Below, in pieces: positions 18,416 to 60,791 of a DNA stretch of 64,000 bases. The DNA is from Deltaproteobacteria bacterium (GTDB taxonomy: Bacteria > Desulfobacterota > Dissulfuribacteria > Dissulfuribacterales > QOAL01). The stretch lies in assembly GCA_026986785.1 (NCBI GenBank), contig JALSNW010000051.1:186001-250000 (forward strand), given 5' to 3'. The first letter of the stretch is position 1. Every line of letters starts with the position of its first letter. The translations under genes and the position numbers were made by a program. Under the pieces are notes generated by a model. The model ran no database searches, was not told where the DNA came from, and saw nothing but the letters and a program-made list of their open reading frames with translations.

Positions 18416-18438
18416 GTAATCCTCCTTGCTGACCATCT

Positions 18439-24036: not shown

Positions 24037-26115
24037 ATGTTAAATAGGTTTTTCGACAACTCTCAAAAAGGCTTGGTGCTGGCAGTATTGCTGGCAGTCT
24101 TTTTTTCCGTGGCCTTAAGATTGTTTCCATTTCATCATATCTTGATGCAGAAAGATTCATTTTTTTACAATGGCAAGCCTATATTGACCACTTACGATGG
24201 CTATTATTATTTGCATCTTTCAAAACACTACTGGGAGGATGAGTACCATTCCAGTGCCTTGGGTACGGTTGGTACCCGTATCAGAACCAGGCCACTTTTG
24301 GTCACACTGACTGCAATAATCAACAAGCTCTCCGGCGTGCCCCTTGAATGGATTGCCTACTTTTTGCCGGTTTTTCTATCAGCCTCTCTCATTATCGTAT
24401 TTTTTTTCTGGAGCAAAGTGTATGAAAATGTCTCCATATTTTTTATGAGCTCCATTGTTGGGGCAGGAAATCTGGCCTGGTACGTGAGGTCTTGTCTTGG
24501 CCGGTATGATACAGATAGTCTCATCCCCTTTTTCATGTTCGTTATCCCTTTTTGTTCCTACAAATTCAGTCTGTCCTATGATAGAAGACAAAAGATTAAA
24601 CTGGGCATTCTCACTCTATTAATGGCAATAGTCTTCTATAAGTGGTGGCACCGTGCCCTTTTTTTTATCCCCTTTTTGATTGCTGTGCCCTATGTGTTGA
24701 GTATGTTTTTTGTCAAGACTTCCTGGCTCGGTAAAATTATTAGATTGGGCATGGTGACCGTGTTCATAGCCGCATCGGTTTCAGTGTTCCAAGGACTTGA
24801 CGTTAGCTGGCTTGGGGATTTGGGTAGACAGTTTACGGTTGTTGCAACCTCCATAAAACGTATGACCCTTAATAAAATAGGCCTATATCCATCTGTTTTT
24901 AAGGGTGTTGGTGAGCTCACTGGTGTTTCTTTCATGGAAGCTGTGGAGAAGGTCTCTGGTCATTGGGCCGTATTTGTTTTTTCTCTGTTCGGCCTGTGGC
25001 AGGCAATCAGGATAAAGAAAGAGGCCATTCTTTTCCTGGTTGTTCCTATTGGCCTGGGGATAATGGGGTTTTGGATAAGGAAATGCCTGATCTTTACTGC
25101 ACCTGTTGTTGCCTTTGGGTTCGGCTTTTTTGTATATGAGACATACAAGTATGCCACCAGGTCTTTAAAGAGATATTCCTCTCCCGTCTGTGGGCTTGTA
25201 GCGCTACTTCTCATGGTCTTGGCAATCTATCCATCCTGGAACACGGTCTTAGCGCCTTCTTTTTCTCCTGGAGAGATGGCTGTTGCAGAGACATTGAAGC
25301 AGTACCCCGATGATGGGCCAGTCTGGTGTTGGTGGGATTATGGCTATCTCATTGAATACTTGGCTGACAAGAAGGTCTTTGTAAATGGCGCCACCCAGAG
25401 ACCAAGAAGGGTTTTTCTGAGCGCAGTACCCTTTGCCTCCAAGGATCCACGGCTTTCTGCCAACTGGATAAGATTTTTTTCTCTTAGAGGTATCGCCGGC
25501 CTCCAAAAGATCTCCAAGGAGCTTGGTTCTGAGACAGAAGCTATCTCATTCCTGAAGCAAGCCTTGGCATCTCCTGGATTGTTGTCGGTACTTGTTGAAA
25601 AATATGGTCTTCCCCAGGATAGGGATTGGCAGCATTTTTTATACCCTGAAGGCAAGGCATATCTCTATATACCTTATAGAATGCTTGACTTGGCTGATTT
25701 GTGGTATTACTTCGGCACGTATGTATTTGACGGAGATACACAGGATAAGGCATACTACCGTATTATTGATGGCGTGGTTATGCTCAATAGAAAAAGAGGA
25801 AGCTTGAGGATGGGGGGGCGAGACATCTTTCTCAAGAAAATATATATGTTTAAACTCGATCCAAAACCACATATGGAATCTTGGGGAGAATACAATAACG
25901 CTTCTGATCTTTCACTTATTTTTAATGTGCCATTTCATAAAGCACTCATTGTAGATGCTAAGCTTAATAGGACAGCATTCATCCAGCTGTTGTTTGAGCC
26001 CGATAGGACCAAGTGTTTTGAATCCATTTCCTTCATACCATTTCAGGCAGGTGCGTGGGCTGTAAAGAGATGTGGAGATACCTCGGCAACCACTGAAGCA
26101 ATGGAAGCGAAATGA
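24037..26115 (+). CDS. pglB: bacterial oligosaccharyltransferase, STT3/PglB family
   Basis: The 692-residue protein has about a dozen membrane helices in the first 415 residues and a soluble periplasmic C-terminal domain, the STT3/PglB plan. The enzyme moves a lipid-linked glycan onto asparagine of exported proteins. Catalytic features are present: D54 in T-T-Y-D-G-Y-Y-Y (external loop 1), the D158-T-D160 motif in G-R-Y-D-T-D-S, E293 in a segment aligning by eye with the T-I-x-E loop of Campylobacter PglB, and the acceptor-recognition motif W432-W-D-Y-G436. The next gene overlaps it by four bases (ATGA). Among glycan clusters with Wzx and Wzy, an STT3-type enzyme is uncommon. Specificity is not known. 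Confidence 0.9.
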   Translation: MLNRFFDNSQKGLVLAVLLAVFFSVALRLFPFHHILMQKDSFFYNGKPILTTYDGYYYLHLSKHYWEDEYHSSALGTVGTRIRTRPLLVTLTAIINKLSGVPLEWIAYFLPVFLSASLIIVFFFWSKVYENVSIFFMSSIVGAGNLAWYVRSCLGRYDTDSLIPFFMFVIPFCSYKFSLSYDRRQKIKLGILTLLMAIVFYKWWHRALFFIPFLIAVPYVLSMFFVKTSWLGKIIRLGMVTVFIAASVSVFQGLDVSWLGDLGRQFTVVATSIKRMTLNKIGLYPSVFKGVGELTGVSFMEAVEKVSGHWAVFVFSLFGLWQAIRIKKEAILFLVVPIGLGIMGFWIRKCLIFTAPVVAFGFGFFVYETYKYATRSLKRYSSPVCGLVALLLMVLAIYPSWNTVLAPSFSPGEMAVAETLKQYPDDGPVWCWWDYGYLIEYLADKKVFVNGATQRPRRVFLSAVPFASKDPRLSANWIRFFSLRGIAGLQKISKELGSETEAISFLKQALASPGLLSVLVEKYGLPQDRDWQHFLYPEGKAYLYIPYRMLDLADLWYYFGTYVFDGDTQDKAYYRIIDGVVMLNRKRGSLRMGGRDIFLKKIYMFKLDPKPHMESWGEYNNASDLSLIFNVPFHKALIVDAKLNRTAFIQLLFEPDRTKCFESISFIPFQAGAWAVKRCGDTSATTEAMEAK

Positions 26116-28004
26116 GACAACTTTTCAGGGAATTTTTGGCCAAATATCCCCTGCGCAGCCTATGTGGTATATTTTGTGATCTTTTTTGTATTGTTCTCGC
26201 TTGGTATGGGGCATGGTGGTTGCGTCTCAATCTGAATCCATCTCCATATCGTATTGCTATATGTAACAAAGCACTACCTTTAGTTTTTGTCGTACAATCG
26301 ATAACTTATTTTTTACTTGGACAACACAAAGGATACTGGAGAACAGCATCCATAAGGGACTTGGCCAACATAATCATGGTAGCCGTGACAGGCTCCCTGT
26401 CTATTACCCTCTTTCTTTTTTTGTATAACAGGTTACTTACCGAGGTCCCCAGAAGTATTCCGATCATCTATTTCTTGCTGTATGTGTGTTTCCTGGGTGG
26501 TACGAGGTTTCTATACCGTTTTTTTTCAGAGCAATCCCTTAAAAATGGTGGAGACAGGGAAAAGGTTTTGGTTGTAGGGACTGATTCTTCTACTGAATTT
26601 CTCATAAGGGAACTCACCCAGAAGTGCTCAGCTCAGTACGCCCTCTTGGGTCTTTTGGACAAAGATGGCAGGAAGAAGGGGAGAAAGATCTTGGGCGTGG
26701 ATGTTATTGGAAGTATTGAAAATCTTGATACATATCTTGAAAAGTTCGGGATTGATAAGGTTTTTATTGCATCATCGAGTATAAAAGGGCGTGATATCAG
26801 GCGTATTGTTGAGAGTTGTCATAAAAAGGGGATCCCTTGCAGGATAATGCCTCTTTTAAGGGATATGATCTCTGGTGCAGGAGGAAAATCTATAAACCTT
26901 CTAAGGGAGGTACGGCCTGAGGACCTTCTTGGACGAGAGCCAATAAGTCTTGATAGAGACCTGATAGGGGATTTTCTGAACAACAAGGTTATACTCGTTA
27001 CTGGTGCAGCAGGTTCCATTGGTTCAGAATTATGCCGTCAAATAATAAGATATAGGCCTAAGAGACTTGTAGCCTTGGATGCCAGAGAAGAGGCCATGTT
27101 TTTTATGGAGCGTTCTTTCAGGGAGTCTTTTCAGGACATGGATTTCATTTGTTGCCTGGCAAATGTCTGTAACAGGTCAATAATGGAAGATGTGTTTAAT
27201 AAATGGAAACCCCACGTGGTTTTTCATGCTGCAGCTTATAAACATGTGCCAATGGTGGAGATGAACCCTGTTATGGGAATGAAAAACAACTTGCTTGGAA
27301 CTATTAATGTAGCTGAAATGGCTAATTCGACAGGCGTTGAGAAATTTATCTTCATTTCCACGGACAAGGCAGTGAATCCTACTAATATAATGGGATTGAG
27401 CAAACGATTAGGGGAGCTTTTTTGCCTTTCCCTGAATTGTAGGAGCGAAACAGCCTTTGTTGTTACAAGGTTTGGGAATGTTTTGGGTTCAAGCGGGTCT
27501 GTCATTCCAATATTTCAGCAGCAACTGGAGAGTGGAGGCCCTCTTACCGTAACCCATCCAGAGATTACAAGATTTTTCATGTGCATCTCTGAGGCATGTG
27601 AATTGGTTTTACAGGCCTCGGCAATGGGTAGAGGTGGTGAGATATTTGTCCTGGAGATGGGAGAGCCAGTAAAGATCGTGGAGCTTGCCAAGAGCATGAT
27701 CCGATTGGCTGGCTTTATTCCTGGGAAGGATATAGATATTATTTTTACTGGACTCAGGCCTGGAGAAAAACTATATGAAGAGCTTTTTTATGAACAGGAG
27801 AAATTGGTGTCAACTAAACACAAAAAGATCCTTCTGGCCAAAAGCGAGCTTTCTGTGGCAGAATTAGACGAAACCTTGGATAAGGTCATACTGCTTTTGC
27901 AAGAGAATAAATGGCATGAAGCGAAGGAGTTGGCCTTTTCCCTGGTTAAATTGGAAGGTGGCGCTCAGATAATTTCCTCGCCTCGTATTGGAAGGTTGGG
28001 TTAG
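26112..28004 (+). CDS. membrane UDP-GlcNAc 4,6-dehydratase-like protein (PglF/WbpM/CapD family)
   Basis: The 630-residue protein has four N-terminal membrane helices (about residues 8-125), a CoA-binding-like Rossmann segment (about 150-260), and a C-terminal SDR domain with G298-A-A-G-S-I-G-S for NAD(P). The catalytic block reads S-T-D-K-A-V-N-P-T-N-I-M-G-L-S-K, so methionine replaces the usual tyrosine of YxxxK, as in WbpM (S-M-K triad). Such enzymes make UDP-4-keto-6-deoxy sugars, the first step towards bacillosamine or FucNAc/QuiNAc types. In Campylobacter pglF also sits with the oligosaccharyltransferase. Here it overlaps it by four bases. Confidence 0.92.
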   Translation: MRQLFREFLAKYPLRSLCGIFCDLFCIVLAWYGAWWLRLNLNPSPYRIAICNKALPLVFVVQSITYFLLGQHKGYWRTASIRDLANIIMVAVTGSLSITLFLFLYNRLLTEVPRSIPIIYFLLYVCFLGGTRFLYRFFSEQSLKNGGDREKVLVVGTDSSTEFLIRELTQKCSAQYALLGLLDKDGRKKGRKILGVDVIGSIENLDTYLEKFGIDKVFIASSSIKGRDIRRIVESCHKKGIPCRIMPLLRDMISGAGGKSINLLREVRPEDLLGREPISLDRDLIGDFLNNKVILVTGAAGSIGSELCRQIIRYRPKRLVALDAREEAMFFMERSFRESFQDMDFICCLANVCNRSIMEDVFNKWKPHVVFHAAAYKHVPMVEMNPVMGMKNNLLGTINVAEMANSTGVEKFIFISTDKAVNPTNIMGLSKRLGELFCLSLNCRSETAFVVTRFGNVLGSSGSVIPIFQQQLESGGPLTVTHPEITRFFMCISEACELVLQASAMGRGGEIFVLEMGEPVKIVELAKSMIRLAGFIPGKDIDIIFTGLRPGEKLYEELFYEQEKLVSTKHKKILLAKSELSVAELDETLDKVILLLQENKWHEAKELAFSLVKLEGGAQIISSPRIGRLG

Positions 28005-28040: not shown

Positions 28041-29201
28041 GTGATTTTGGAAGCAGAAAGAGTCGAAAGAGAGCACTTGGCAGATAATTCTGCCAAATAT
28101 CGTTGTAATGATGATGAAATAGATCTTGTCCAGATATTTCGTATGTTGTCTGGTCAGAAAACCACAATTTTGGTTACAATGGCTATCTGTTTGGTTTCGG
28201 CTTTTTTATTCCTCCTTTTCACTACACCTCTATATGACATAAAGATCCAGATCAAATCAGGCCTCAAGGGCTGGCCCAAGGAAGATATCACTTCATGGTT
28301 GAAGGAGAGACAATATGTCAATCTATTCCCTCATCCAGACAAGGATACGTCTAAAAAGATAGGCGCCATCCGCTTCAAACACGATCGTAAGGGAGATATC
28401 ATAACTATCCATATGTATTGGCCTGATCCAGATCAGGGACGGGCCTTTTTGGAAGAATTGATAAGACGCTGGATGGATTACTATCTAAGGAAATTTCCAG
28501 ACGATAGTATCATCTTGGCCAGACGGGAGATTGAGCAAAAGATCGACGAGTTGGAACAGCAACTGAATACCTTGAACAAGATAGATGTGGCCCAGCTCGA
28601 AAATCGTATCTCAGAAAAGACAAAGCTCATAGGTCTCAAAAAGAGAGATATAGAAACACTCAAAAAGGAGATAGAAAGTAAAAAGGCCCTTCTGAAGTAT
28701 TTTGAGGAAATAATTGAGAAGCTGATGGTTAATACAGATGCCCTCATGAAGGCCAGGGACGCCCTGCTTGTTAAGGGTAAACAACAGGACCTATCCATGC
28801 TTTTTCTTTTGAATTCCATACAGCAGAACATCTCTTATGCTGATCAGGTCAAGAGGCGCATGGTCGATGTCCAATCCAATATATATCAGGACTCAAATCA
28901 GATAATTTCCTTGCAAAATGAAATAGAGGAGATCCAGAACTCTATATCAGAGATGAAACTCCAAAAAACAGTGGAACTTCAGGGCAAGAGATCGTTTTTG
29001 GAAAAAAAGATCGGGGATCTAAGATACCAGTTGGAGCATATAGCACCCATCAAGGTGCTTGGGCCAGCTACGAACACTCTCAATCCAGTGAAGCCAAGGA
29101 AAACCCTTATCTGGTTCATGGCAGTGATAGGGGGGCTTTTTCTTGGGATATTCCTGGCGTTTTTCAAGGTCATGCTACAGAGTGATCTTGGAAGAAAGTG
29201 A
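28041..29201 (+). CDS. Wzz-like chain-length determinant / polysaccharide co-polymerase
   Basis: The 386-residue inner-membrane protein has a helix near residues 45-65 and a second near 355-377, with a long periplasmic coiled-coil region between them (about 150-345, rich in E-I-x-x-L-x-x-E heptads). That is the two-helix architecture of Wzz proteins, which set O-antigen length with Wzy. The P-x-x-P-x-x-P-R-K-x-L-I proline motif before the second helix (here N-P-V-K-P-R-K-T-L-I) is characteristic. There is no C-terminal tyrosine-kinase domain. The start is a GTG with AAAGGG just upstream; a nearby TTG two codons later is an alternative. Confidence 0.85.
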   Translation: MILEAERVEREHLADNSAKYRCNDDEIDLVQIFRMLSGQKTTILVTMAICLVSAFLFLLFTTPLYDIKIQIKSGLKGWPKEDITSWLKERQYVNLFPHPDKDTSKKIGAIRFKHDRKGDIITIHMYWPDPDQGRAFLEELIRRWMDYYLRKFPDDSIILARREIEQKIDELEQQLNTLNKIDVAQLENRISEKTKLIGLKKRDIETLKKEIESKKALLKYFEEIIEKLMVNTDALMKARDALLVKGKQQDLSMLFLLNSIQQNISYADQVKRRMVDVQSNIYQDSNQIISLQNEIEEIQNSISEMKLQKTVELQGKRSFLEKKIGDLRYQLEHIAPIKVLGPATNTLNPVKPRKTLIWFMAVIGGLFLGIFLAFFKVMLQSDLGRK

Positions 29202-29251: not shown

Positions 29252-29317
29252 ATGGGGATTGGGCTCGCCATTTCAACAGCAGAGGGAAAAAGTGGAGAAC
29301 AATTTTTTAAATGGTAA
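29252..29317 (+). CDS. possible 21-residue leader peptide overlapping the next gene
   Basis: An ATG at 29252 follows AGGAGG by five bases, the best ribosome-binding site in this neighbourhood, yet its frame stops after 21 codons at 29317. It overlaps the start of the dehydratase gene in another frame. It could be a real short coding sequence that couples translation to the next gene, or the relic of a frameshift at the beginning of that gene. The peptide has no recognisable motif, so I hold it as tentative. Confidence 0.25.
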   Translation: MGIGLAISTAEGKSGEQFFKW

Positions 29318-30386
29318 ACGAGTAGCTGTCACAGGTGCCTGTGGCACTGTTGGTACTGAATTGGTTCGACAGCTTCTTGAGGGCAGGCAGAGACCAGCCG
29401 AGGTCGTGGCCCTTGATAACAATGAGAGCGCACTTTTTTTCTTGGAACAGCGTTTCCTGGCCCACGACAATGTCCATTTTTTTTTAGCAGATATTAGGGA
29501 CAGGGATAAACTATGTCGCAAGTTCAAAAATATAGATATAGTGTTTCATGTTGCTGCATATAAGCATGTGATCCTGTGTGAGCGTTCACCATTCGAGGCA
29601 GTGCAGACCAATATAAATGGTGTGCAGAACGTGATATACGCTGCATGTGAAAACAAGGTGGAAAAGGTGATTTTTACCAGCTCGGACAAGGCGGTCAATC
29701 CCACCAGTGTCATGGGGACATCGAAGCTTATGGGTGAAAGGCTGATGACTGCAGCAAATAGTAATGTTCAGGGTGGAGGGCCTATTTTCGCATCTACCCG
29801 TTTTGGAAACGTCTTGGGATCTCGTGGTTCTGTTATCCCGATATTTCATGAACAGATAAAAAAGGGCGGGCCAGTCACGCTTACAGATCCAGAGATGACA
29901 AGATTTATCATGAGCATACAGGAAGCTGTACGACTGGTGATCGATTCTGCCATGATTGCCCGTGGTGGAGAGGTGTTTGTCACCAAGATGCCTGTCATTC
30001 GTATTGAGGATTTGGCTGAGGTGATGATAGAAGAGCTTGCCCCACGCTATGGGCATGATCCTACTGCCATAGAGATTGTAATGATTGGGGCAAAGCCAGG
30101 GGAGAAGATGTATGAGGAGCTGATGAGTGTCGAAGAGACACGGAGGGCTGTGGAACTACCCAGATATTTTGCAGTTCTTCCAGCTTTTCGGGGGATTTAT
30201 AGGCGAATAAGATACGATTATCCCGATGTTGTTTCTGAGACAGTAGAAAATCCTTATGTCTCCTCCAATGAGCCCCCTTTGAACCGTGAAGAGCTTGGTC
30301 GTTTTTTAAAGGCAAATAAACTCTTGGGCTCCTTGGAGTCAGGGCAGGAGCATCCAGATAGGCGTTTCTGGCCGGGTGAAAGATAG
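29292..30386 (+). CDS. soluble UDP-sugar 4,6-dehydratase / epimerase (polysaccharide biosynthesis SDR)
   Basis: The 364-residue protein is a Polysacc_synt_2-type SDR. It has T-G-A-C-G-T-V-G-T-E for NAD(P), H-V-A-A-Y-K-H-V, T-S-S-D-K-A-V-N-P-T-S-V-M-G-T-S-K with the S-M-K catalytic triad, and S-T-R-F-G-N-V-L-G-S-R-G-S-V. It lacks membrane helices, unlike the PglF-like gene, and has a C-terminal extension of about 60 residues. It probably makes another keto-deoxy or epimerised UDP-HexNAc. The GTG at 29292 follows GAGGG by five bases; an in-frame TTG at 29259 is less likely. Confidence 0.88.
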   Translation: MENNFLNGKRVAVTGACGTVGTELVRQLLEGRQRPAEVVALDNNESALFFLEQRFLAHDNVHFFLADIRDRDKLCRKFKNIDIVFHVAAYKHVILCERSPFEAVQTNINGVQNVIYAACENKVEKVIFTSSDKAVNPTSVMGTSKLMGERLMTAANSNVQGGGPIFASTRFGNVLGSRGSVIPIFHEQIKKGGPVTLTDPEMTRFIMSIQEAVRLVIDSAMIARGGEVFVTKMPVIRIEDLAEVMIEELAPRYGHDPTAIEIVMIGAKPGEKMYEELMSVEETRRAVELPRYFAVLPAFRGIYRRIRYDYPDVVSETVENPYVSSNEPPLNREELGRFLKANKLLGSLESGQEHPDRRFWPGER

Positions 30387-30409
30387 ATCATTAGTAAGAG
30401 GTTTTTTAC

Positions 30410-31555
30410 ATGCGGGTCTTGATATTGGGTGGAGATGGTTATCTCGGCTGGCCTACTGCAATGGCTTTTTCCTACAAAGGACATCAGGTCTTTGTGGTAG
30501 ACAATTATTTGAGACGCAGTCTATGCCGAGATCTTGATGTGGAGCCCCTCTTTTCTACTCCAAATCTCTTGAGCAGGATTAGGATATGGAAGGAGATAAC
30601 AGGAAAAGAGATGCAGGTCGAGATAGGCGACTGTTGTGAGTATAGATTTTTGATTGATATTTTCAGGAAGTTCCAGCCAGAGGTTGTTGTCCATTATGCT
30701 GAGCAGCCCTCAGCCCCTTATTCCATGCTAAACTATGAAGCCGCCAGGCTCACCCTGTCAAACAATCTGCTCAGCACTTTAAATATCATCTGGGCTGTCA
30801 GGGAAATAGTGCCAGAGTGTCATATAATAAAGCTTGGCACCATGGGTGAATACGGTACACCAGATATAGATATTGAGGAGGGATGGATTGAGATCGAACA
30901 CAAGGGCAGAAGGGATCGATTTCTGTTCCCAAGACAGGCCAGTTCCCTTTATCATACCACCAAGATCCAGGATACGGATCTCTTATGGTTTTATGTAAGG
31001 ACATGGAATCTCAGGGTGACGGACTTGATGCAGGGCCCTGTCTATGGCCTGTCTACACCAGAGACTGAATTGGATGAAAGGCTTTCGACCTTTTTCAATT
31101 ATGATGAGCTTTTTGGTACTGTTGTAAATCGCTTCATCGTGCAAGCAGTGGCTGGTTATCCCCTTACCGTATATGGTAAAGGTGGCCAAACCAGGGGATA
31201 TCTAAATATTCGCGATACCATTGCCTGTGTGGAACTTGCCATGTTAAATCCCGCAGAGTTTGGGGAGTTGAGGATATTTAATCAAATAACCGAGACATTT
31301 TCCGTAAATGAACTTGCTGGGAGGGTTAGGCGAGTCGGGCTCGACAGAGGACACGAGGTGGAGATAAGAAGTGTAGAAAATCCCAGGATAGAATTGGAAG
31401 AACATTATTATAATCCCGCTTATACTGGGCTCAAAGAACTTGGCCTGAAGCCGCATCTAATGACAGATGAAGTGCTTCACGGCATGTTTGAAAAGGTCGA
31501 ACGGCATGCAGCAGGCATCCATAAACATAAAATTTTTCGTAGGGTGAAATGGTAA
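30410..31555 (+). CDS. UDP-sulfoquinovose synthase homologue (SQD1/Agl3 type)
   Basis: The 381-residue SDR closely follows plant SQD1 and archaeal Agl3, which build UDP-sulfoquinovose from UDP-glucose and sulfite. Distinctive blocks are G-G-D-G-Y-L-G-W-P-T-A, H-Y-A-E-Q-P-S-A-P-Y-S-M, L-G-T144-M-G-E-Y-G-T-P, Q-A-S-S-L-Y181-H-T-T-K185, M-Q-G-P-V-Y-G and V-Y-G-K-G-G-Q-T-R-G-Y-L-N-I-R-D-T. T144, Y181 and K185 match the SQD1 catalytic T145, Y182 and K186 in spacing. Placement in a glycan cluster next to an oligosaccharyltransferase suggests that sulfoquinovose enters a glycan, as in the Sulfolobus N-glycan, rather than a lipid. No sulfolipid synthase (SqdX-like) is identifiable nearby. Confidence 0.88.
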   Translation: MRVLILGGDGYLGWPTAMAFSYKGHQVFVVDNYLRRSLCRDLDVEPLFSTPNLLSRIRIWKEITGKEMQVEIGDCCEYRFLIDIFRKFQPEVVVHYAEQPSAPYSMLNYEAARLTLSNNLLSTLNIIWAVREIVPECHIIKLGTMGEYGTPDIDIEEGWIEIEHKGRRDRFLFPRQASSLYHTTKIQDTDLLWFYVRTWNLRVTDLMQGPVYGLSTPETELDERLSTFFNYDELFGTVVNRFIVQAVAGYPLTVYGKGGQTRGYLNIRDTIACVELAMLNPAEFGELRIFNQITETFSVNELAGRVRRVGLDRGHEVEIRSVENPRIELEEHYYNPAYTGLKELGLKPHLMTDEVLHGMFEKVERHAAGIHKHKIFRRVKW

Positions 31556-32583
31556 AAGATATCAGGTGGTTGATAACAGGAGGATGTGGCTTTATTGGTA
31601 CTTCGCTTATAAGGTATCTATTGGGGAAAGGACTGGCAAGCAGGATACGTATCCTGGACAATCTTTCCGTAGGCACGCGTGAAGACTTGGCATCTGTTTG
31701 TAATTTCAAGGAGATTCACCCCTTGTCTCTAAGTAATGGTCAGGGGTATATGCATTCTCGATCTGGATCTGTCTCGTCGGCGATTCAAAACAAGATTGTG
31801 GAACTTGTTCCAGGTGACATACGTGATGCCGATCTGACCCAGGCATGCTGTCGAGATATGGATATTGTAGTCCACCTGGCTGCCAATACAGGTGTGCCAA
31901 AGTCAGTGGAAAATCCAAGGCTGGACATGGAATCCAATGTGATAGGTACCTTTAATATGTTGGAAGCAGCCAGGATGACAGGAATAAAACGTTTCGTTTT
32001 TGCCTCAAGTGGTGCTCCTGCTGGAGAGGTGGAGCCACCTATTCACGAGGAATTACCCCCTCATCCAGTCTCTCCATATGGTGCCAGTAAATTGGCTGGA
32101 GAGGGTTATTGTTCTGCCTATTTCAGGACATTCGGCCTTGAAACTGTCGCCTTGAGATTCAGTAATGTCTATGGTCCTGGCTCTACACATAAGACCAGCG
32201 TCGTGGCAAAGTTTATAAAACAGGCACTAAACGGTGAGACCTTGGAAATCTATGGTGATGGTAGCCAGACCAGGGACTTCATCTTTATAGACGATTTGAT
32301 AAATGCATTGGTACTCGCGGCAACAAGGGAGGGCATTGGTGGAGAAATTTTTCAAATAGCGACCAATCGAGAGACCACACTTGATGAAATGACCGAACTG
32401 CTCATTAGTGCCTTGGAAAGGCATGGCATCTCAAGACCTGAAGTTATCAAAACAGAGCCCCGGATAGGTGATGTAAGAAGGAATTTTTCCGATACAACAA
32501 AGGCTCGACAGATGTTGGGATGGAAGTGCCAATGGGATCTGGCACAAGGTCTCGATTCCACCATCGAATGGTTTACTGGTTAG
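31549..32583 (+). CDS. NAD-dependent nucleotide-sugar epimerase (GalE/WbpP-like SDR)
   Basis: The 344-residue extended SDR has T-G-G-C-G-F-I-G-T-S for NAD, H-L-A-A-N-T-G-V-P-K-S-V-E-N-P, a catalytic S-S-G-A-P-A-G-E and Y-G-A-S-K (YxxxK), and R-F-S-N-V-Y-G-P-G-S. It most resembles UDP-hexose or UDP-HexNAc 4-epimerases found in surface-polysaccharide clusters. It overlaps the SQD1 homologue by seven bases (TGGTAA against ATGG), so the pair is translationally coupled, and it may supply or adjust the UDP-sugar used by that enzyme. The exact substrate cannot be read from the sequence. Confidence 0.88.
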   Translation: MVKDIRWLITGGCGFIGTSLIRYLLGKGLASRIRILDNLSVGTREDLASVCNFKEIHPLSLSNGQGYMHSRSGSVSSAIQNKIVELVPGDIRDADLTQACCRDMDIVVHLAANTGVPKSVENPRLDMESNVIGTFNMLEAARMTGIKRFVFASSGAPAGEVEPPIHEELPPHPVSPYGASKLAGEGYCSAYFRTFGLETVALRFSNVYGPGSTHKTSVVAKFIKQALNGETLEIYGDGSQTRDFIFIDDLINALVLAATREGIGGEIFQIATNRETTLDEMTELLISALERHGISRPEVIKTEPRIGDVRRNFSDTTKARQMLGWKCQWDLAQGLDSTIEWFTG

Positions 32584-32602: not shown

Positions 32603-33349
32603 ATGATAAGGGAAACCAATCCGTCCTCCTTTGGCATATTTAGTAAAGGAGTTGATGTCAGTAATGATGAATTGGCCTTTCTGATCGAGTGTGAAAAGGC
32701 CAAAGCTGCACATAAGATCCTGCGGCAACACAAGTACTTCTATTCTCCTTTGCTCAAAGGATATGATGAGACCAAAGGTATCCTTGTCTTTGAAAAGATA
32801 GAGGCCATGGAGCCTCTTTCTTGTCACATGGATGCTGTGTGGTTCCACAGGGCTGGCGAACTCCTTGCCTTGATACACACTCGATTGCATCTGCCAGAAG
32901 AAATTTCGATTGTCAGATATGAGGATAAAGGCAGGAAAGGCAATGTATATGTCCATGGAGATTTCATGCCCAACAATCTCTGTATCTCCAAGGGACGGTT
33001 GGTGGTTTTCGATTGGGGAGTGCGTCCCTGGATATCACAGGTCTATACCATGGCTTCACCTGTTGTGGATTTGGCTGCCTTCATGGCCCCATGGTGGGTG
33101 CCGCTATGGTGGGATTTCCAGTTTCCCTTGGACAAATTGAATCTATTTTTCCAGGCATATGTAAAAAGGGCAGGGGTTGATGATAAGACAGTCAATGCCC
33201 TAAAAAACGAATTGGGACGGGAACTTATTATGCACAAGATATATCATCAGAAGGAAATCAAAAAAAGGCCATTTTGGAAACGTCCATTACATCAGATGAA
33301 GCTGGTCGTGAATTACCTTAGAACAAGGCATGGAATCATCAATGGTTGA
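32603..33349 (+). CDS. aminoglycoside/choline-kinase-like phosphotransferase
   Basis: The 248-residue protein has the APH/ChoK kinase catalytic core: V-H-G-D-F-M-P-N-N-L (H-G-D-x4-N, with the catalytic aspartate and metal-binding asparagine), followed by V-V-F-D-W-G (the DxG-equivalent metal aspartate). The N-terminal lobe is short and the glycine-rich nucleotide loop is not obvious. Proteins of this type in polysaccharide clusters can add phosphate to a sugar or small precursor, or modify a lipid-linked glycan. It lies 19 bases after the epimerase and overlaps the methyltransferase by 20. Confidence 0.78.
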   Translation: MIRETNPSSFGIFSKGVDVSNDELAFLIECEKAKAAHKILRQHKYFYSPLLKGYDETKGILVFEKIEAMEPLSCHMDAVWFHRAGELLALIHTRLHLPEEISIVRYEDKGRKGNVYVHGDFMPNNLCISKGRLVVFDWGVRPWISQVYTMASPVVDLAAFMAPWWVPLWWDFQFPLDKLNLFFQAYVKRAGVDDKTVNALKNELGRELIMHKIYHQKEIKKRPFWKRPLHQMKLVVNYLRTRHGIING

Positions 33350-34085
33350 CATATCCTTTCAAGACTATCGGGACAGTCACAAAGGACCTTCAAAGGTCAA
33401 GGAATATGATCCACAATTCTGGATATCAGGCACCACAAATCACCTCTTTTGGGAGATCGAGCGCATACTGCTAAAGGAAATAATAGATAAAATGGACCCC
33501 TATCCCAAAAGAGCGCTTGATTTCGCCTGTGGTACAGGCAGGGTCTTATCTTTTCTGGAGAAACATATCGAGGAAACCCACGGTGTTGACATCTCCAGTG
33601 ATATGTTGAGGGTGGCACGCAGTCGATGTAAAAGTTCATCCTTGCTCGAAGGAGATCTCACCACCAATCCAGCGCTTCTGGACAAACGATTTGATCTGGT
33701 TACTGCCTTTCGATTTTTTCTGAATGCCCAGCCTACATTGAGAAAAAGCGCCTTGGAGGCCATTGCCTTGAGATTGAAGAAAGATGGATTGCTGGTGGCC
33801 AACTTTCATCTGAATCCTCTTAGCTTGACAGGAGGCTATTTAAGATTCAGGTACTTGTTGAAGGGTACCAAACGTCGTGCCATGTTGACACTGAACGAGG
33901 CCAAGGCGATTCTCGAAGATTCTGGATTCGAGCCAGTTGAAGTGAGAGGTTATGGCTACTTGTTTCACAGACGTAAATACGTGCGTTTTATCCGCTTACG
34001 TGCCCCTCTTGAGAAGGTATTGTCAAGAACTAACCCTTTGCCGTCTCTTGCAATGAATTTTCTTATTGCTGCAAAACCCAAGTGA
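33330..34085 (+). CDS. class I SAM-dependent methyltransferase
   Basis: The 251-residue protein has motif I L-D-F-A-C-G-T-G-R-V, motif II G-V-D-I-S-S-D-M, an acidic loop L-E-G-D-L and L-R-L-K-K-D-G-L-L-V-A-N-F. It lacks a membrane anchor. It may methylate a sugar hydroxyl or carboxyl during assembly of the glycan. Two ATG codons, at 33330 and 33342, are possible starts; the first overlaps the kinase-like gene by 20 bases. The C-terminal 80 residues have basic and hydrophobic clusters of unknown role. Confidence 0.8.
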   Translation: MESSMVDISFQDYRDSHKGPSKVKEYDPQFWISGTTNHLFWEIERILLKEIIDKMDPYPKRALDFACGTGRVLSFLEKHIEETHGVDISSDMLRVARSRCKSSSLLEGDLTTNPALLDKRFDLVTAFRFFLNAQPTLRKSALEAIALRLKKDGLLVANFHLNPLSLTGGYLRFRYLLKGTKRRAMLTLNEAKAILEDSGFEPVEVRGYGYLFHRRKYVRFIRLRAPLEKVLSRTNPLPSLAMNFLIAAKPK

Positions 34086-34151: not shown

Positions 34152-35471
34152 ATGGCCTCAGGGATAAACGATTTTACCAATACTTTTATCGCTCGTGTTT
34201 TTAATGTTGGATTGACGATTGCAATTCAGGGCTGCCTTGCTTGGTTTCTTCTTCCTGCTGGTCGTGGTTCTTATGCTGTCTGTTTGATTTTCACTAGTTT
34301 GCTTATTTATGTATTTTCATTGGGCAGTGATATTGCATTTAGTTATTTTGTGTCTTCAAAAAGATTATCCCTTTCCGAATCAATTACCATAAGTTTTGTT
34401 CTGATCTCGCTGATTTCATTTTGTGCTATTTTTTGTGGTTATATAGTTTTGCAGCTTCCATTTGCTTTTATATCCAAGGCATCATATAGTGCTTTTTTGT
34501 TGTCTTTATTTTATGTTCCTTGTTTATTATATGCGAATATTTATCTTCAACTTTTTACTGCAATTGGTAGTTTTCAGCTTTATGGTTTTTTGCTGGTTCT
34601 TCGTGAGTTGAATAGACTTATCTTGGTGTTGTTTTTTGTGCTCTGGTTGTCTTATGGCGTCGAAGGTGCTCTTCTTGCAAATATATGTTCAGATTTAATA
34701 ATTATTTTCTTGTCTTTGTTTTTTTATTTTTTTAGATTTCATGTAAAATTAGTTAGAATACACTGGTTATCTTTAAAGAACATCTTATCATATGGTGTTC
34801 GTTATTATCTTGGTAGATTAAGTAATATTTTAAATTTCCATATTGCTACAATTATATTGGCTTTTTTTGCTACTAAAGAAGAAATAGGCTTGTTTTCTGT
34901 CGCAATTGCTTTGACAGTGAGGATTGAGATGATCCCAGATGTTTTTTTCGCAGTCATCTTTCCCAGGGTCGCAGCCAGTACGACAGGACGACAGGAACTG
35001 GTGGCCCAATGCGCCCGTATAAGTGGTCTAATTTGCGGTATTATCTTGATACTGCTTGGTATATTTGCTCAACCCATTATTAAGATGCTCTTTTCTCCAG
35101 CATTTCTGGCTTCTGTCTCATTGGTGCGCATTTTGATAATTGGAACAATTGTAAGATGTGGGGCAAAGATATTTGTATCGTATCTGCTTGGGACAGACCA
35201 TCCAGGTATTGCTTCCATAAGTGTAGCAATAGGTGTCTTGATAAATATCATCCTTATTTATACATTGTTCCCAATTTTTCAACTAAATGGTGCTGCAGTC
35301 AGTGTGACAATAAATTACTTGTTCAGTTCATTGATCTTAATTGTAAGTTTTAGATATCTTACTGGTCTCACTTTTCGTGAAATACTTGTGCCCAGTAGAT
35401 CGGATCTTGCATTTTTACAATCTGCTATTCGTAGCAGATTTTTTCGATCTACCAGTAAAAATATTGCTTAG
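34152..35471 (+). CDS. wzx: Wzx-type lipid-linked oligosaccharide flippase
   Basis: The 439-residue protein has about twelve to fourteen hydrophobic helices across its length with short loops, a polysaccharide-synthesis MATE/MVF-type exporter that flips undecaprenyl-linked repeat units across the inner membrane. Pairs such as S-Y-G-V-R-Y-Y-L-G-R-L-S-N-I and R-I-E-M-I-P-D-V-F in the middle are typical of Wzx. The gene is clearly richer in A+T than its neighbours, as wzx and wzy often are. It is followed two bases later by the AsnB-type gene. Confidence 0.85.
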   Translation: MASGINDFTNTFIARVFNVGLTIAIQGCLAWFLLPAGRGSYAVCLIFTSLLIYVFSLGSDIAFSYFVSSKRLSLSESITISFVLISLISFCAIFCGYIVLQLPFAFISKASYSAFLLSLFYVPCLLYANIYLQLFTAIGSFQLYGFLLVLRELNRLILVLFFVLWLSYGVEGALLANICSDLIIIFLSLFFYFFRFHVKLVRIHWLSLKNILSYGVRYYLGRLSNILNFHIATIILAFFATKEEIGLFSVAIALTVRIEMIPDVFFAVIFPRVAASTTGRQELVAQCARISGLICGIILILLGIFAQPIIKMLFSPAFLASVSLVRILIIGTIVRCGAKIFVSYLLGTDHPGIASISVAIGVLINIILIYTLFPIFQLNGAAVSVTINYLFSSLILIVSFRYLTGLTFREILVPSRSDLAFLQSAIRSRFFRSTSKNIA

Positions 35472-35473
35472 TT

Positions 35474-37444
35474 ATGTGTGGAATATGCGGAATAATCAAT
35501 ATAGATGGGACCCCAGTCAATCCTGATGTAATCATTAGTATGCGGGATGTTATGTCCAATAGAGGGCCAGATGACAAGGGTGCTGTCCTGCTAAGGGGTG
35601 CTTCCCAAGGGAGAGGGGAGAGATGTTTGAGATTTCAAGAGTTACAAGAGATAGAGGCCCAGCATCTGAACTCTGGTTATAATATCGGTTTGGCCCATAG
35701 GCGTCTTTCCATAATAGATTTATCTCATGATGGCCGTCAGCCAATGTCTAACGAAACCGAGACCGTATGGATAACCTTTAATGGTGAAATCTACAATTTT
35801 TTAGAACTTAGGCAGGAGCTTGAAGTTAGAGGCCATAGGTTCAGGACGAGAACGGATACCGAAGTTATTGTGCAGGCGTATGAGGAATGGGGTACAGACT
35901 TTGTCTGTCATTTGAGAGGTATGTTTGCCATAGCTATTTGGGATGTTGAAAGATCCCTGTGTGTCTTGACTCGTGACCGCTTTGGAATCAAACCGCTTTT
36001 TTATTATTGGGATGGCAAGCACCTGATCTTCTCCTCAGACATCAACAGCTTGATGTTAAGTGGCCTGATAGAACCAGAAATTTCTCCAGAATCGGTTCTC
36101 CAATATTTCAAATATCATTATATCCCGGCCCCTAATACGATTTATAAGGAAGTGTATGCGGTCCTGCCTGGCGAAGAATTAGTGGTATTCAATGGATATA
36201 TGGACAAACGGGAATTTTGGCAACCCTGTTTGGCCCAGACCATTTCGGATGAGAAAGAGGCTATTGAACTTGTGGAGTCCAAGTTGAAAGAGGCGGTCGA
36301 TATTCATCTCGTAGCAGACGTGCCAATAGGCTCTTTCCTGAGTGGAGGAGTGGATTCAAGTCTGGTCACCCTATTCGCAAAGGAAATTACTGGTGATATA
36401 AATGCCTTTTGTATAGGCTTTAGGGAGCCCGAATTTGATGAGTCCAGTTACGCGCGAATGGTTGCAGATCGTTTGGGGGTTTCCCTAAAGGTTGACATGA
36501 TGGAACAGGTACCGCCTTTCGAGGAGATAATAAAGATAGTGGATTGCTGTGATCAACCCTTTGCAGACTCTTCTTTGATTGCCACCTATCAGGTCTGTAG
36601 GAATGCTCGGCACTATTTTCCTGTGGCCTTGTCTGGAGATGGTGGAGATGAGGTTTTTGCCGGTTATGGCTTTAGGCTGCAGAATATTTCTTCGTATTCA
36701 GACAGGCATCCAATGATTAATGGTGTGATGAATGCCATATTGTCAGCAGGGAAGATGTTAGGGACTTTTAACCGCTTTGCTATCGCATTTGAAAGATTGA
36801 AAAATTTTAAGGGGCGCTCTCTTGCCCAGAGATATATTTTTTATCATATCAAATCGCAACAAGCTGATGAGATAGTGCATCCGGACGTGTCCAAGGCCGG
36901 AGAGCCCCATCCTGATTTTATTAAGTCCCAAGTGGACAGGCATGGACTACCCAATAATCTTGAAGGCATGCTCGCCCTTTGTATCAAAAATAACCTGCCA
37001 AACGACATGCTGGTAAAGGTGGATCGTGCCAGCATGGCCAATTCCCTAGAAGTGCGTGTTCCTTTTTTGGATCATAGATTGGTCGAAACAGCGTTCATGC
37101 TGGCATCTTCTCTGAAACAGCCAGGTATAATAAGGACAAGGCCCAAATATATATTGAAAAAGATAGCAGAGAGGAATTTGCCCCATGAGTCGATTTATAG
37201 GAAAAAGAAGGGGTTCAGTGTACCAATGGGTAAATGGGCGGATACTAAAATCAACAGTTATTTGACAGAGGTCTTCAATTCGATTCCACGATCAGTTTAC
37301 GACTATCTGAATCCAGATATTGCAAGAAGAATCGACAATCCCCAAGAAATGACCTTGACATATACAGATCAATGGGCACTTTTTTGTTTTTTCATCTGGC
37401 ATGACAGACATCAGAAATCTAAGCATATCTGTAAAAGAATTTAG
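35474..37444 (+). CDS. AsnB-type glutamine amidotransferase (asparagine synthase family)
   Basis: The 656-residue protein begins M-C-G-I-C-G-I so Cys2 becomes the N-terminal nucleophile of the glutaminase domain after removal of the initiator methionine. The synthase domain has the pyrophosphatase loop S-G-G-V-D-S-S, and the blocks N-A-F-C-I-G-F, L-S-G-D-G-G-D-E-V-F-A-G-Y and V-D-R-A-S-M-A-N-S-L-E-V-R-V-P-F-L-D are present. In surface-polysaccharide clusters such enzymes often amidate a sugar carboxylate rather than make asparagine. That role is inference; no UDP-glucose dehydrogenase that would supply a uronic acid is seen in the cluster. It overlaps the next gene by 44 bases. Confidence 0.9.
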   Translation: MCGICGIINIDGTPVNPDVIISMRDVMSNRGPDDKGAVLLRGASQGRGERCLRFQELQEIEAQHLNSGYNIGLAHRRLSIIDLSHDGRQPMSNETETVWITFNGEIYNFLELRQELEVRGHRFRTRTDTEVIVQAYEEWGTDFVCHLRGMFAIAIWDVERSLCVLTRDRFGIKPLFYYWDGKHLIFSSDINSLMLSGLIEPEISPESVLQYFKYHYIPAPNTIYKEVYAVLPGEELVVFNGYMDKREFWQPCLAQTISDEKEAIELVESKLKEAVDIHLVADVPIGSFLSGGVDSSLVTLFAKEITGDINAFCIGFREPEFDESSYARMVADRLGVSLKVDMMEQVPPFEEIIKIVDCCDQPFADSSLIATYQVCRNARHYFPVALSGDGGDEVFAGYGFRLQNISSYSDRHPMINGVMNAILSAGKMLGTFNRFAIAFERLKNFKGRSLAQRYIFYHIKSQQADEIVHPDVSKAGEPHPDFIKSQVDRHGLPNNLEGMLALCIKNNLPNDMLVKVDRASMANSLEVRVPFLDHRLVETAFMLASSLKQPGIIRTRPKYILKKIAERNLPHESIYRKKKGFSVPMGKWADTKINSYLTEVFNSIPRSVYDYLNPDIARRIDNPQEMTLTYTDQWALFCFFIWHDRHQKSKHICKRI

Positions 37445-38696
37445 AGATAGGTTCTCTTTTATATTATTGTGTGTCTATGTCTTTGTTGCGCCTTTGGGCA
37501 CATTGTTTAGATTTTCATCCAAGGAGACTGCCTTGGGTGTGTCATCTGTTATACTCTTAAGTTTAATTGGATTATACTTTATTGATAGTCTATATGTTTT
37601 TCTTCGTAGAAAGATCTTTGTAATTTTATTATTATTGATTTTATGGCTTCTATTGTCATCTTTTTTTATTCTTGATGATACAACTCGTGCCTATACAAAT
37701 CTTATATTTTTGACAGGATATATTCTTTTTTGTATAGCTATTACATTAATTCATATTTCGTTATTTCGCTTGAGATTACTTTTTTTCTTTCTGTTTCTGG
37801 GGATATTTTTGTCTGCTGGCCTGACACTCATAGATTTTTTAGGAATAATCGATATTCCATATGTAAACATGTTGAAAATCTCAACAAAAGTCAATGGAGA
37901 AGAAATTTATCAAGCAAGTGGCTTTTTTATGAGGCGCTCAGCAATGGCTGCATATTTTTCTCTTGTCTTGCCAGCAAGTTTTATAATTTTTCTCAACCTC
38001 AGGCATAATTTTTTAAGAATCATATTAATCTCGACCTATTTCATGGGATTACTCGTTCTTATCTTGACTCATAATCTTGCTGGCATCACTGCTATATTGA
38101 TTTCTTGTATAATATATTTTCTATTTGGCTATAATGGCAATTTTCTATTGAAGTTGAGAAATATTTTGATATTATCTGGACTAATATTGTCTTTTGCTTT
38201 TGTTCTTGTTTTTAGGTTTCCGCAAGTAATTGATGTCTATATGTTTCGTATTCAAGTGCATTATTCTAATGCTCCAGTAAATGACGTATTTTTAGCAAAG
38301 CAGAAAGAATCTGATAATGAAAGATTGTATTTTTTAAAGCATGCAATTATGAATGTAGTAAAATGTCCTTTAGGACATGGATTGTCATATATCTCTACTT
38401 ATGAATATGGACTTACAGATCCACATAATATTATTACACAACTTATTTGGGGTTTAGGAATATTTTCGTTTTTTTGGTTCGCTTTATTTGTTGCTGTATT
38501 GATTAATATATTGAAGACAAGTAAAAACTTGAAAGATACTTATCGGTTTTATTTCGATTCCATAAAATATGGTTTATTTTCCTGGTTGATATGCGCTATG
38601 GCACATAATATAATTTTTACAGGTCTTGCATGGCTTTTCTTTGGTTTGATGATTAATTTTCACTATAGATATTTATGGTGTAATACTGATTTTTAG
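37401..38696 (+). CDS. Wzy-type polymerase / O-antigen ligase-like membrane protein
   Basis: The 431-residue protein has about eleven hydrophobic helices and a long, poorly hydrophobic periplasmic section (about residues 275-335), the plan of the Wzy and WaaL family. A G-H-G-L segment followed by a histidine-rich loop (D-P-H-N) after it is typical of the large catalytic loop. Family members either polymerise repeat units or ligate glycan to lipid A, and the two cannot be told apart by sequence. The coding sequence is strikingly A+T-rich, unlike AsnB upstream. It starts inside the 3' end of that gene, in another frame. Confidence 0.78.
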   Translation: MTDIRNLSISVKEFRDRFSFILLCVYVFVAPLGTLFRFSSKETALGVSSVILLSLIGLYFIDSLYVFLRRKIFVILLLLILWLLLSSFFILDDTTRAYTNLIFLTGYILFCIAITLIHISLFRLRLLFFFLFLGIFLSAGLTLIDFLGIIDIPYVNMLKISTKVNGEEIYQASGFFMRRSAMAAYFSLVLPASFIIFLNLRHNFLRIILISTYFMGLLVLILTHNLAGITAILISCIIYFLFGYNGNFLLKLRNILILSGLILSFAFVLVFRFPQVIDVYMFRIQVHYSNAPVNDVFLAKQKESDNERLYFLKHAIMNVVKCPLGHGLSYISTYEYGLTDPHNIITQLIWGLGIFSFFWFALFVAVLINILKTSKNLKDTYRFYFDSIKYGLFSWLICAMAHNIIFTGLAWLFFGLMINFHYRYLWCNTDF

Positions 38697-38716: not shown

Positions 38717-39883
38717 ATGGCAAGAGTATCTGACGAAAAAAAGTTGGTTTTTGTCCCTAATGGTGCCATTGGTTGGTATAATGGAAGATATTATTTGCAT
38801 AGGAGTTATAGGCCTTTCCTTGGTGAACTCCTGGAATATTTTGATTTCGTTATATTATCTCAACTGGCCGTTGATGTTTCAGAAAATAGCTTTGTCGATT
38901 GGCATCTTGACAATCGTTCAAATCTAAGAATAGTCACTCTCAATCTCTCGGTGAAACATTCCAATATAGTTTTAAAGATATTCAATTACATTACGGCCTT
39001 TTTAAGAGCCGCCCCTGTAGTAAAAAAAGAATCGTTCTTCTATTTATGTGTGCCTGGTCATATACCCATGATATACGCCATTTTGTGTAGAGTCTTAGGT
39101 AGAAAATATGCCCTCTATGTCAGGGGAGATTGGTCGAAAGGCATGATGAGATTTGGGGAGAAGGTCTATGCACATCTGTTCAGGCACGCCAGTTTTGTTT
39201 TGGTTACTGGACATGATTATCTTTCAAAGATCACGCCATTGAATATCCGCACCGAGCTTGTTGTTCCAATGATCGAGCTTTGCAGTAATGACCTTTATAT
39301 CCATAGAGATTTTGGCCTTGGGCATACGATAAACTTACTGTTTCTGAGCCGTATCGAACGGGCCAAGGGGATATTGGATCTACTGGATGCCTTTGAATCA
39401 CTGCGGAAAAAAGATGACAGACTACATTTGGTAATTGCCGGAGATGGCCCTGACTTCTCCCAGGTGCAAGAAAGGTGTAAGGCAAGAGGACTTGCCGAGT
39501 CCGTAACATTGACTGGTCTCGTCGATGACAGGGAAAAGATCAGGGAATTATACATGAGGAGCGATATCTTTATCTTGCCTTCTCATCATGAGGGCTTCCC
39601 CCGGGTTTTATACGAGGCAATGTGTTTTGGTCTTCCCATCATTACCACTTTTGTGGGATCCATTGGTTCAGTGATGAAACATGGTCGAAACTGTTTGAAG
39701 ATCCAGGCAGGTGATAAACTCGATATTGAACTGAAGGTATTAAATTTGATCAAAGATGAGAAGCTCAGGCAGAGGATTGGCAGGGGGGCAATAGAAACCA
39801 TGGCGACATTGTTTAAGGGATTTGATAAATCAAGCCATGCGAAACAAGTGATAGAGTGGACAAGGCATGCCGAGATCTATTAA
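38717..39883 (+). CDS. GT4-family glycosyltransferase
   Basis: The 388-residue GT-B-fold protein has a C-terminal nucleotide-sugar domain with L-F-L-S-R-I-E-R-A-K-G, L-V-I-A-G-D-G-P-D and the E-x7-E block H-E-G-F-P-R-V-L-Y-E-A-M-C-F-G-L-P-I-I, which is characteristic of GT4 retaining enzymes. The N-terminal half has a Y-N-G-R-Y acceptor-like segment and a basic, hydrophobic surface for membrane contact. It should add one sugar to the undecaprenyl-linked intermediate on the cytoplasmic face. It follows the wzy-like gene by 20 bases. Confidence 0.9.
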   Translation: MARVSDEKKLVFVPNGAIGWYNGRYYLHRSYRPFLGELLEYFDFVILSQLAVDVSENSFVDWHLDNRSNLRIVTLNLSVKHSNIVLKIFNYITAFLRAAPVVKKESFFYLCVPGHIPMIYAILCRVLGRKYALYVRGDWSKGMMRFGEKVYAHLFRHASFVLVTGHDYLSKITPLNIRTELVVPMIELCSNDLYIHRDFGLGHTINLLFLSRIERAKGILDLLDAFESLRKKDDRLHLVIAGDGPDFSQVQERCKARGLAESVTLTGLVDDREKIRELYMRSDIFILPSHHEGFPRVLYEAMCFGLPIITTFVGSIGSVMKHGRNCLKIQAGDKLDIELKVLNLIKDEKLRQRIGRGAIETMATLFKGFDKSSHAKQVIEWTRHAEIY

Positions 39884-42910: not shown

Positions 42911-42926
42911 AAATACATACTCGTTC

Positions 42927-43694
42927 ATGAAAGTTTCAATAATCACTGTATGCCTAAATTCTGTCTCCACGATAGAGGACAGCATCAATTCAGTAATGTC
43001 CCAAACCTATCCAGATATAGAATATATCGTTGTAGATGGGGCCTCTTCCGATGGCACACTTGATGTGATCCACCGCTATAGACATCATATCCATCACTTT
43101 GTTACAGAACCGGATCGGGGCATTTACGATGCAATGAATAAGGGGATAGGGTTGGCCTCAGGGGATGTTATAGGGATCCTCAATTCAGACGATGTCTATG
43201 AGGATGAGTTTGTCATACAAAAGGTAGTGGAAAAATTTATAGAAAGCAGATCCGATATAGTGCTTGGAGATGTCGTATGGGTAGACAGGGATGATCTTCG
43301 CAAAATAAGACGTTATTACTCCAGTAAATATTTTCAGCCTTGGAAGTTGAGAATCGGATGGATGCCGCCACATCCTGCGACATTCATCAAGTCGGCCACT
43401 TATAAACACGCAGGCCTCTATTCCTTGGATTACAGGATAGCTGCTGATTATGAGATGTTTGTTAGAATGTTTCTCGTTCATGGTTTTTCTTTTGCAAGGA
43501 TCCCTGCCATCTTGGTAAGAATGAGGATGGGAGGTATCAGTACAAGCGGATTCAAATCTTTTTGGATATTGAACAGCGAAGTAGTCAAGGCTTGTCGGCA
43601 AAATAAGGTGTATACAAATATTCTTTTGATCTTGACCAAGTTCCCTTTCAAGATATTTCAATTACTTAAAAAGCCGAAGAAATTAGATCATTGA
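42927..43694 (+). CDS. GT2-family glycosyltransferase
   Basis: The 255-residue GT-A enzyme begins V-S-I-I-T-V-C-L-N-S and has Q-T-Y-P-D-I-E-Y-I-V-V-D-G-A-S-S-D-G-T, D-R-G-I-Y-D-A-M-N-K-G and the D-x-D-like L-N-S-D-D block. P-H-P-A-T-F-I appears near the acceptor side. These are the signatures of WcaA/RfbC-like GT2 transferases. The ATG at 42927 is chosen; a longer reading from 42804 lies inside the preceding gene and adds unrelated residues. The stop overlaps the TTG start of the next gene. Confidence 0.91.
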   Translation: MKVSIITVCLNSVSTIEDSINSVMSQTYPDIEYIVVDGASSDGTLDVIHRYRHHIHHFVTEPDRGIYDAMNKGIGLASGDVIGILNSDDVYEDEFVIQKVVEKFIESRSDIVLGDVVWVDRDDLRKIRRYYSSKYFQPWKLRIGWMPPHPATFIKSATYKHAGLYSLDYRIAADYEMFVRMFLVHGFSFARIPAILVRMRMGGISTSGFKSFWILNSEVVKACRQNKVYTNILLILTKFPFKIFQLLKKPKKLDH

Positions 43695-60719: not shown

Positions 60720-60791
60720 AGGGGTAGTTTCTCCTTTGTCAGGTCTTGTAAGGATTTCTTTCATTAGGTCGATCCAAGCTCTCCATTGATC

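Follow-up and report, generated by a model that had tools for sequence, protein, structure and literature searches.

The O-antigen clusters of Pseudomonas aeruginosa unite a WbpM-type dehydratase, a short-chain dehydrogenase/reductase (SDR) and a WecA/WbpL-type transferase and are, to our knowledge, devoid of PglB. Two distant PglB oligosaccharyltransferases per genome are known in Helicobacter and Campylobacter species (PMC6025236, PMC4894442), and divergent single-subunit enzymes are described from the delta-proteobacterial genus Desulfovibrio (DgPglB, DvPglB and DdPglB; PMC4894442). The locus studied here belongs to a 64,000-nucleotide stretch of a Deltaproteobacteria bacterium with sulfur-metabolizing relatives (contig JALSNW010000051.1), hereafter called the window. 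It consists of 17 same-strand open reading frames from 24037 to 45750, overlapping or separated by less than 70 bases, and starts with a gene for a PglB-type protein named PglB-B. The reading favored here, with moderate confidence, is that a second, divergent PglB-type N-oligosaccharyltransferase has been recruited to a Wzx/Wzy/Wzz-type polysaccharide locus and moves the cluster glycan to asparagines of exported proteins.

Both open reading frames at the head of the run are present where the preliminary description of this DNA had placed them, and they overlap by 4 bases (Table 1). That description had assigned the first product to the STT3/PglB family and had proposed profile searches and a structure comparison as checks. 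The profiles gave a divided answer. The PF21436 STT3/PglB core was matched above its cut-off (E 9e-12), but PF02516 reached only 20 bits for a cut-off of 24.5, and with the PglB profile of NCBIfam the score, in spite of an E-value of 2e-29, was 102 bits for an equivalog cut-off set at 1300. For this last reason the protein is called PglB-like, or type B, and not an ortholog of Campylobacter PglB. A phmmer search related it to the C. lari PglB structures (E about 1e-18). An AlphaFold2 model was built from an alignment of 44 PglB-like proteins of the phylum (predicted local distance difference test, pLDDT, 90.4; predicted template modeling score, pTM, 0.89), and a poor model from a 4-sequence alignment (pLDDT 58) was discarded in its favor. 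The top Foldseek matches of the retained model were 6gxc, 5ogl and 3rce (E 8e-29 to 2e-26; template modeling score, TM, 0.72-0.75), the best solved structure being C. lari PglB (E 8e-29, TM 0.75), with eukaryotic STT3 and archaeal AglB coming next.

The same 44-protein alignment was used for the inspection of individual residues, and the catalytic set announced in the preliminary description was found intact. Indeed, D54, R151, D158, T159, D160, E293, W432, W433, D434 and G436 occupy invariant or nearly invariant columns, and the column of Y435 holds Y or H in most rows. The metal-binding D56, D154 and D156 of ClPglB and its catalytic-loop E319 correspond to D54, D158, D160 and E293, and the acceptor-binding WWDYG motif is kept as W432-W-D-Y-G436. 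K349 of the window protein is Arg in all other rows, and the position of the MI motif is occupied by M549-L-D-L. Judged on the modeled fold and the active site, PglB-B is a PglB/STT3-type oligosaccharyltransferase, the match being far beyond chance. The catalytic residues are kept even though the copies of the same genus are only 53% and 43% identical, which argues that pglB-B is under constraint. PglB-B thus shares with the C. lari and C. jejuni enzymes (5ogl, 6gxc, 3rce) the full-length fold (TM about 0.75), the acidic metal-binding residues and the equivalents of R147, E319 and WWDYG. It differs from them by an identity of ~18% over the structural alignment, by Lys in place of both R331 and R375, and by a location outside any pgl locus with PglK, PglC, PglD or PglE.

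PglB-B is not the only enzyme of this type in the source genome (2.59 Mb, 52 contigs, 99% complete). A second PglB (type A), 28% identical to PglB-B, is encoded on another contig (C11); its gene adjoins glnE, has thrS close by and does not belong to a glycan locus. Of the same-order genomes sampled, most match the PglB-B query, and type A accounts for nearly all of the matches; from its distribution, it is the standard PglB of the order. Two of the three same-genus relatives have type B, which was otherwise found remotely in one genome of the same order (G028) and, elsewhere in the phylum, in another family (f47). In a maximum-likelihood tree, the type-B proteins of the window, G001 and G028 form with the f47 proteins a fully supported group separate from type A, although the placement of G028_B, which has a long branch, is uncertain in detail; the type-A proteins of the source genome, G001 and G002 cluster together. 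The standard enzyme being located outside glycan loci, type B would be free for a dedicated glycan. A comparable situation exists in H. pullorum (PglB1 and PglB2) and in the C. concisus and C. gracilis pairs, in which the two PglBs of a genome are unlinked and weakly similar (PMC6025236, PMC4894442). H. pullorum belongs, however, to another phylum, and its glycan genes occupy five separate loci, whereas here a single complete polysaccharide cluster has the second PglB at its head.

The preliminary description had also reported a WbpM/PglF-type dehydratase overlapping pglB, and this assignment holds. The 630-aa product matches PF13727 and PF02719 (E 6e-115) as well as the C. jejuni WlaL (PglF) structures (E 6e-86). 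Its active-site signature reads S-T-D-K-A-V-N-P-T-N-I-M-G-L-S-K, and three transmembrane segments are predicted. The TDK...Mx3K motif is common to WbpM and PglF, so that the signature cannot separate the two pathways, but the partner genes can. No candidate for PglD, PglE or PglC was found inside the cluster, and PglD_N has zero family matches in the source genome. The only two full-length DegT aminotransferases of the genome are respectively ArnB-like and encoded beside an RmlA-like gene, and its sole PF02397 (PglC/WbaP-type) transferase sits in a different cluster. On this gene content, bacillosamine synthesis, which the preliminary description had mentioned for PglF of Campylobacter, is an unlikely outcome of the pathway. 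Instead, the last two genes of the cluster encode an SDR and a WecA/WbpL-type transferase, a pair that stays together in two relatives (G007 and G001). The locus therefore resembles the WbpM/WbpV/WbpL set of P. aeruginosa, with dehydratase, SDR and transferase in one Wzx/Wzz cluster, the reductase role of the SDR being putative. The roles of WbpL and WbpM are documented in PMC6804347, and it is WbpL that starts O-antigen synthesis. By this analogy, a 6-deoxy-N-acetylhexosamine (6-deoxy-HexNAc) is likelier than bacillosamine as first sugar, and the more probable destination of the dehydratase product is a WbpM-WbpV-WbpL-like route, with a first sugar of the N-acetylquinovosamine (QuiNAc) or N-acetylfucosamine (FucNAc) type, toward a Wzx/Wzy/Wzz polysaccharide.

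The acceptor site bears on the same question, since a canonical Campylobacter-like N-glycosylation would combine bacillosamine, made via PglF, with the D/E-x-N-x-S/T sequon. The position of ClPglB R331 is Lys (K305) in PglB-B and K, E or D in its close relatives. Among 146 predicted exported proteins, taken from stretches covering 45% of the genome, D/E-x-N-x-S/T gave an odds ratio of 1.01 (p=1), and D alone at -2 an odds ratio of 1.44 (p=0.13); the test is weak, as signal peptides were called by a simple rule and the genome also encodes PglB-A. A D enrichment at -2 seen in first-pass statistics was dropped, not being significant after more data and a 2x2 control. Two of the three Desulfovibrio PglBs have Tyr or Ser at R331 and do not favor acidic -2 sites, the -2 preference in this group being relaxed or non-acidic (PMC4894442). 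According to the same paper, DgPglB retains the Arg and is nevertheless relaxed, so the R331 residue alone is not decisive. The acidic rule taken over by the preliminary description cannot be assumed here, and the sequon of PglB-B is probably not restricted to acidic -2. The Campylobacter-like scheme has in its favor the direct overlap of a PglF/WbpM-type dehydratase with pglB; with the bacillosamine partners missing from the cluster, the aminotransferases ArnB-like or RmlA-linked, the selectivity Arg not kept and acidic -2 not enriched, it is improbable. As a side observation, a reverse-strand gene close to pglB (16352-18442) encodes a protein predicted to be exported, with an aspartyl-protease-like domain at its C-terminus and four D-x-N-x-T sequons, the joint highest count of the 146 exported proteins; it is a candidate acceptor.

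The position of pglB at the head of a glycan cluster, also claimed in the preliminary description, is confirmed by its co-directional arrangement with the dehydratase and the Wzx and Wzz genes (PF01943; PF02706/PF13807) of a putative Wzx/Wzy-dependent cluster (Table 1). The G+C content is 37-46% within the cluster and 46-49% over most of the flanks. A terminator, an Rfam element or RNA leader and a forward-strand promoter match were looked for at the cluster ends and none was found.

Table 1. Genes of the pglB-B polysaccharide cluster in the window
Product	Coordinates	Strand	Remarks
PglB/STT3-type oligosaccharyltransferase, type B paralog	24037..26115	+	692 aa; family, fold and residue matches
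WbpM/PglF-type membrane UDP-HexNAc 4,6-dehydratase	26112..28004	+	630 aa; TDK...Mx3K; overlaps pglB by 4 bases
Wzz-like chain-length regulator	28041..29201	+	PF02706 and GNVR (PF13807)
Soluble CapD/PseB/FnlA-like dehydratase (sdr29)	29259..30386	+	SDK...Mx3K; adjoins SqdB-like gene in module-sharing relatives
SqdB-like SDR (UDP-sulfoquinovose synthase family)	30410..31555	+	Pro replaces Arg101 essential in Agl3
GalE/WbpP-like sugar-nucleotide epimerase or dehydratase (sdr31)	31549..32583	+	third gene of the module
APH-like kinase-fold protein	32603..33349	+	weak match
S-adenosylmethionine methyltransferase	33330..34085	+	family match
Wzx-type (MOP) flippase	34152..35471	+	PF01943
AsnB-like glutamine amidotransferase	35474..37444	+	candidate hexuronamide-forming enzyme
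Candidate Wzy polymerase, membrane protein with 12 transmembrane segments	37401..38696	+	DPHNI motif; neither Pfam nor NCBIfam match
GT4 glycosyltransferase	38717..39883	+	
GT4 glycosyltransferase	39912..41123	+	
NodU-type carbamoyltransferase	41120..42910	+	
GT2 glycosyltransferase	42804..43694	+	real start probably more downstream
SDR, WbpV-like candidate 4-reductase (sdr43)	43691..44695	+	conserved partner of WecA/WbpL gene
WecA/WbpL-type polyprenyl-phosphate HexNAc-1-phosphate transferase	44695..45750	+	PF00953; final gene of run

From these genes we infer a pathway, from its first sugar to its donor, its mode of transfer and its acceptor. The membrane dehydratase and the terminal SDR would produce a UDP-6-deoxy-HexNAc (QuiNAc/FucNAc-like), which the WecA/WbpL-type enzyme would place on undecaprenyl phosphate. 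The two GT4 enzymes and the GT2 enzyme would extend the repeat unit, which would also be amidated, carbamoylated and methylated. Wzx would flip the unit, the Wzy/Wzz pair may polymerize it, and PglB-B would transfer it, as a single unit or in polymerized form, to asparagines of exported proteins. A more specific version, a dedicated N-glycosylation in which PglB-B, apart from the housekeeping PglB, naturally links exported proteins to a Wzy-polymerized, O-antigen-like polysaccharide in place of a short oligosaccharide with bacillosamine, can be proposed only tentatively.

The locus was then compared with those of its relatives. In G003, of the same genus, the overlapping pglB-pglF order is kept up to the contig end. 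In G001, also of the same genus, pglB is bordered by the same fusA gene and followed by inverted wzz and pglF and then by sdr29-sqdB-sdr31, the nodU-GT2-sdr43-wecA genes being located on another contig. In the third same-genus genome (G002) the contig ends just past fusA, and the neighboring site is not visible. The three loci of the genus that carry type B (window, G001 and G003) have pglB at the cluster edge, next to pglF or one gene away. In two genomes of the same family (G009 and G014), the genes beside fusA are unrelated, so that the cluster at that site looks genus-specific. The preliminary description had called such a locus uncommon, and this is only partly the case. A pglB beside Wzx- or ABC-type clusters recurs in the phylum, with polysaccharide genes in G027 (Wzx), G413 (Wzx, AsnB), G026 (Wzm/Wzt, rml-like genes) and G335 (AsnB, NeuB, glycosyltransferases). 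The adjacency of pglB and pglF, in contrast, was seen only in this genus, where the gene order is not fixed, and it is at the level of the genus that a full cluster starts with a type-B gene overlapping one of the WbpM/PglF type. A different setting, GT4-GT2-DUF2304-pglB, is frequent elsewhere in the phylum; this recurrent four-gene arrangement, in which pglB often lies beside a GT2 gene and the gene of a 115-aa DUF2304 membrane protein (PF10066), with a GT4 gene, was observed at L036, L148, L149, L152 and L157.

Several observations weigh against a transfer of the cluster glycan by PglB-B. In G007, of the same family, both the sdr29-sqdB-sdr31 module and the wecA-sdr43 pair exist in the absence of type-B PglB, and a pglF-like gene is found near the pair. 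The whole module, or its first two genes, is likewise present in G022, G035, G004 and G051. PglB-B is therefore not required for glycans of this kind. The WbpV-like and Wzy-like labels are based on position and motifs, without family matches, the sequon odds ratio in exported proteins is flat, and PglB2 of H. pullorum was inactive in the assays done (PMC6025236, PMC11164674). A possible but doubtful alternative is a co-location without function, in which PglB-B would share the lipid-linked glycan pool of PglB-A with another acceptor range, the cluster making an ordinary O-antigen or exopolysaccharide (EPS) that PglB-B does not attach to proteins. It fits the occurrence of the module and the pair without PglB-B, the varying orientation of pglF and wzz relative to pglB, and the presence elsewhere in the genome of two Wzy_C/ligase-family proteins that could serve lipopolysaccharide or EPS. 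It does not explain why the type-B pglB of the genus always lies beside or one gene from pglF at the cluster edge, nor its place as first gene of a single co-directional run. The same two Wzy_C-family proteins weaken the idea that PglB-B is the sole ligase for the polymer.

They also count against the view that PglB-B is an STT3-fold polymer ligase of the Wzy pathway, acting on a lipid or cell-wall acceptor. Its setting in a Wzx/Wzz cluster with no known acceptor protein alongside and the variation of the peptide-selectivity residue would be compatible with such a role, but PglB-B keeps the peptide-binding WWDYG motif, E293 and every acidic metal-binding residue, which makes this role very improbable. 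The recruitment of PglB-B as a protein glycosylation enzyme is preferred. Since the relatives carry the sugar modules of the cluster without PglB-B, the oligosaccharyltransferase looks, by its distribution, like a genus-level addition to the cluster. The locus is real and well preserved, with a second PglB provided with its own polysaccharide operon, probably of a non-bacillosamine kind, and its organization suggests a transfer of the cluster polysaccharide to exported proteins. Elsewhere, the source genome has another polysaccharide cluster (contig C40:30001-50000, L112), which encodes a WbaP-type transferase and NodU-like, Wzy_C and flippase-like proteins.

The SqdB-like protein of the cluster is ~51% identical to Arabidopsis SQD1, with the equivalents of H95, M145, Y182 and K186 kept, and scores 441 bits with NCBIfam for a cut-off of 575. 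The Arg101 of Sulfolobus Agl3, whose change to Ala inactivates that enzyme, is replaced by Pro in the window protein and in eight of the nine other relatives aligned, so that the enzyme may make something other than UDP-sulfoquinovose. A sulfoquinovose-bearing N-glycan of the Sulfolobus type was accordingly demoted, Arg101 being absent and the module being found without PglB-B. A soluble CapD/FnlA-like dehydratase gene adjoins the SqdB-like gene, or in one case lies near it, usually with a third SDR gene, in polysaccharide clusters of seven genomes (window 29259-32583; L038, L079, L080, L081, L082, L083 and L084). The only aligned relative without a dehydratase neighbor (L085) retains Arg101, the others having Pro. 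From these neighborhoods, the pair is perhaps an undescribed sugar-nucleotide pathway misannotated as UDP-sulfoquinovose synthase. Elsewhere in the window, a 1036-aa protein (57654-60764, reverse strand) shows an unusual combination of a peptidase M1-like region, a ChaN/Tiki heme-binding domain and a PDZ domain.

In laboratory bioconjugation, PglB is made to transfer O-antigens to proteins. A natural locus in which a PglB goes together with all the genes of a Wzx/Wzz polysaccharide operon would be the native counterpart of this technology and a source of oligosaccharyltransferases with other donor and acceptor preferences. For the Desulfovibrio enzymes, the passages of PMC4894442 consulted mention no link with Wzx/Wzy clusters. 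The present case also shows that two PglBs, a standard one and an accessory one with its own glycan genes, are kept by bacteria outside the Campylobacterota as well.

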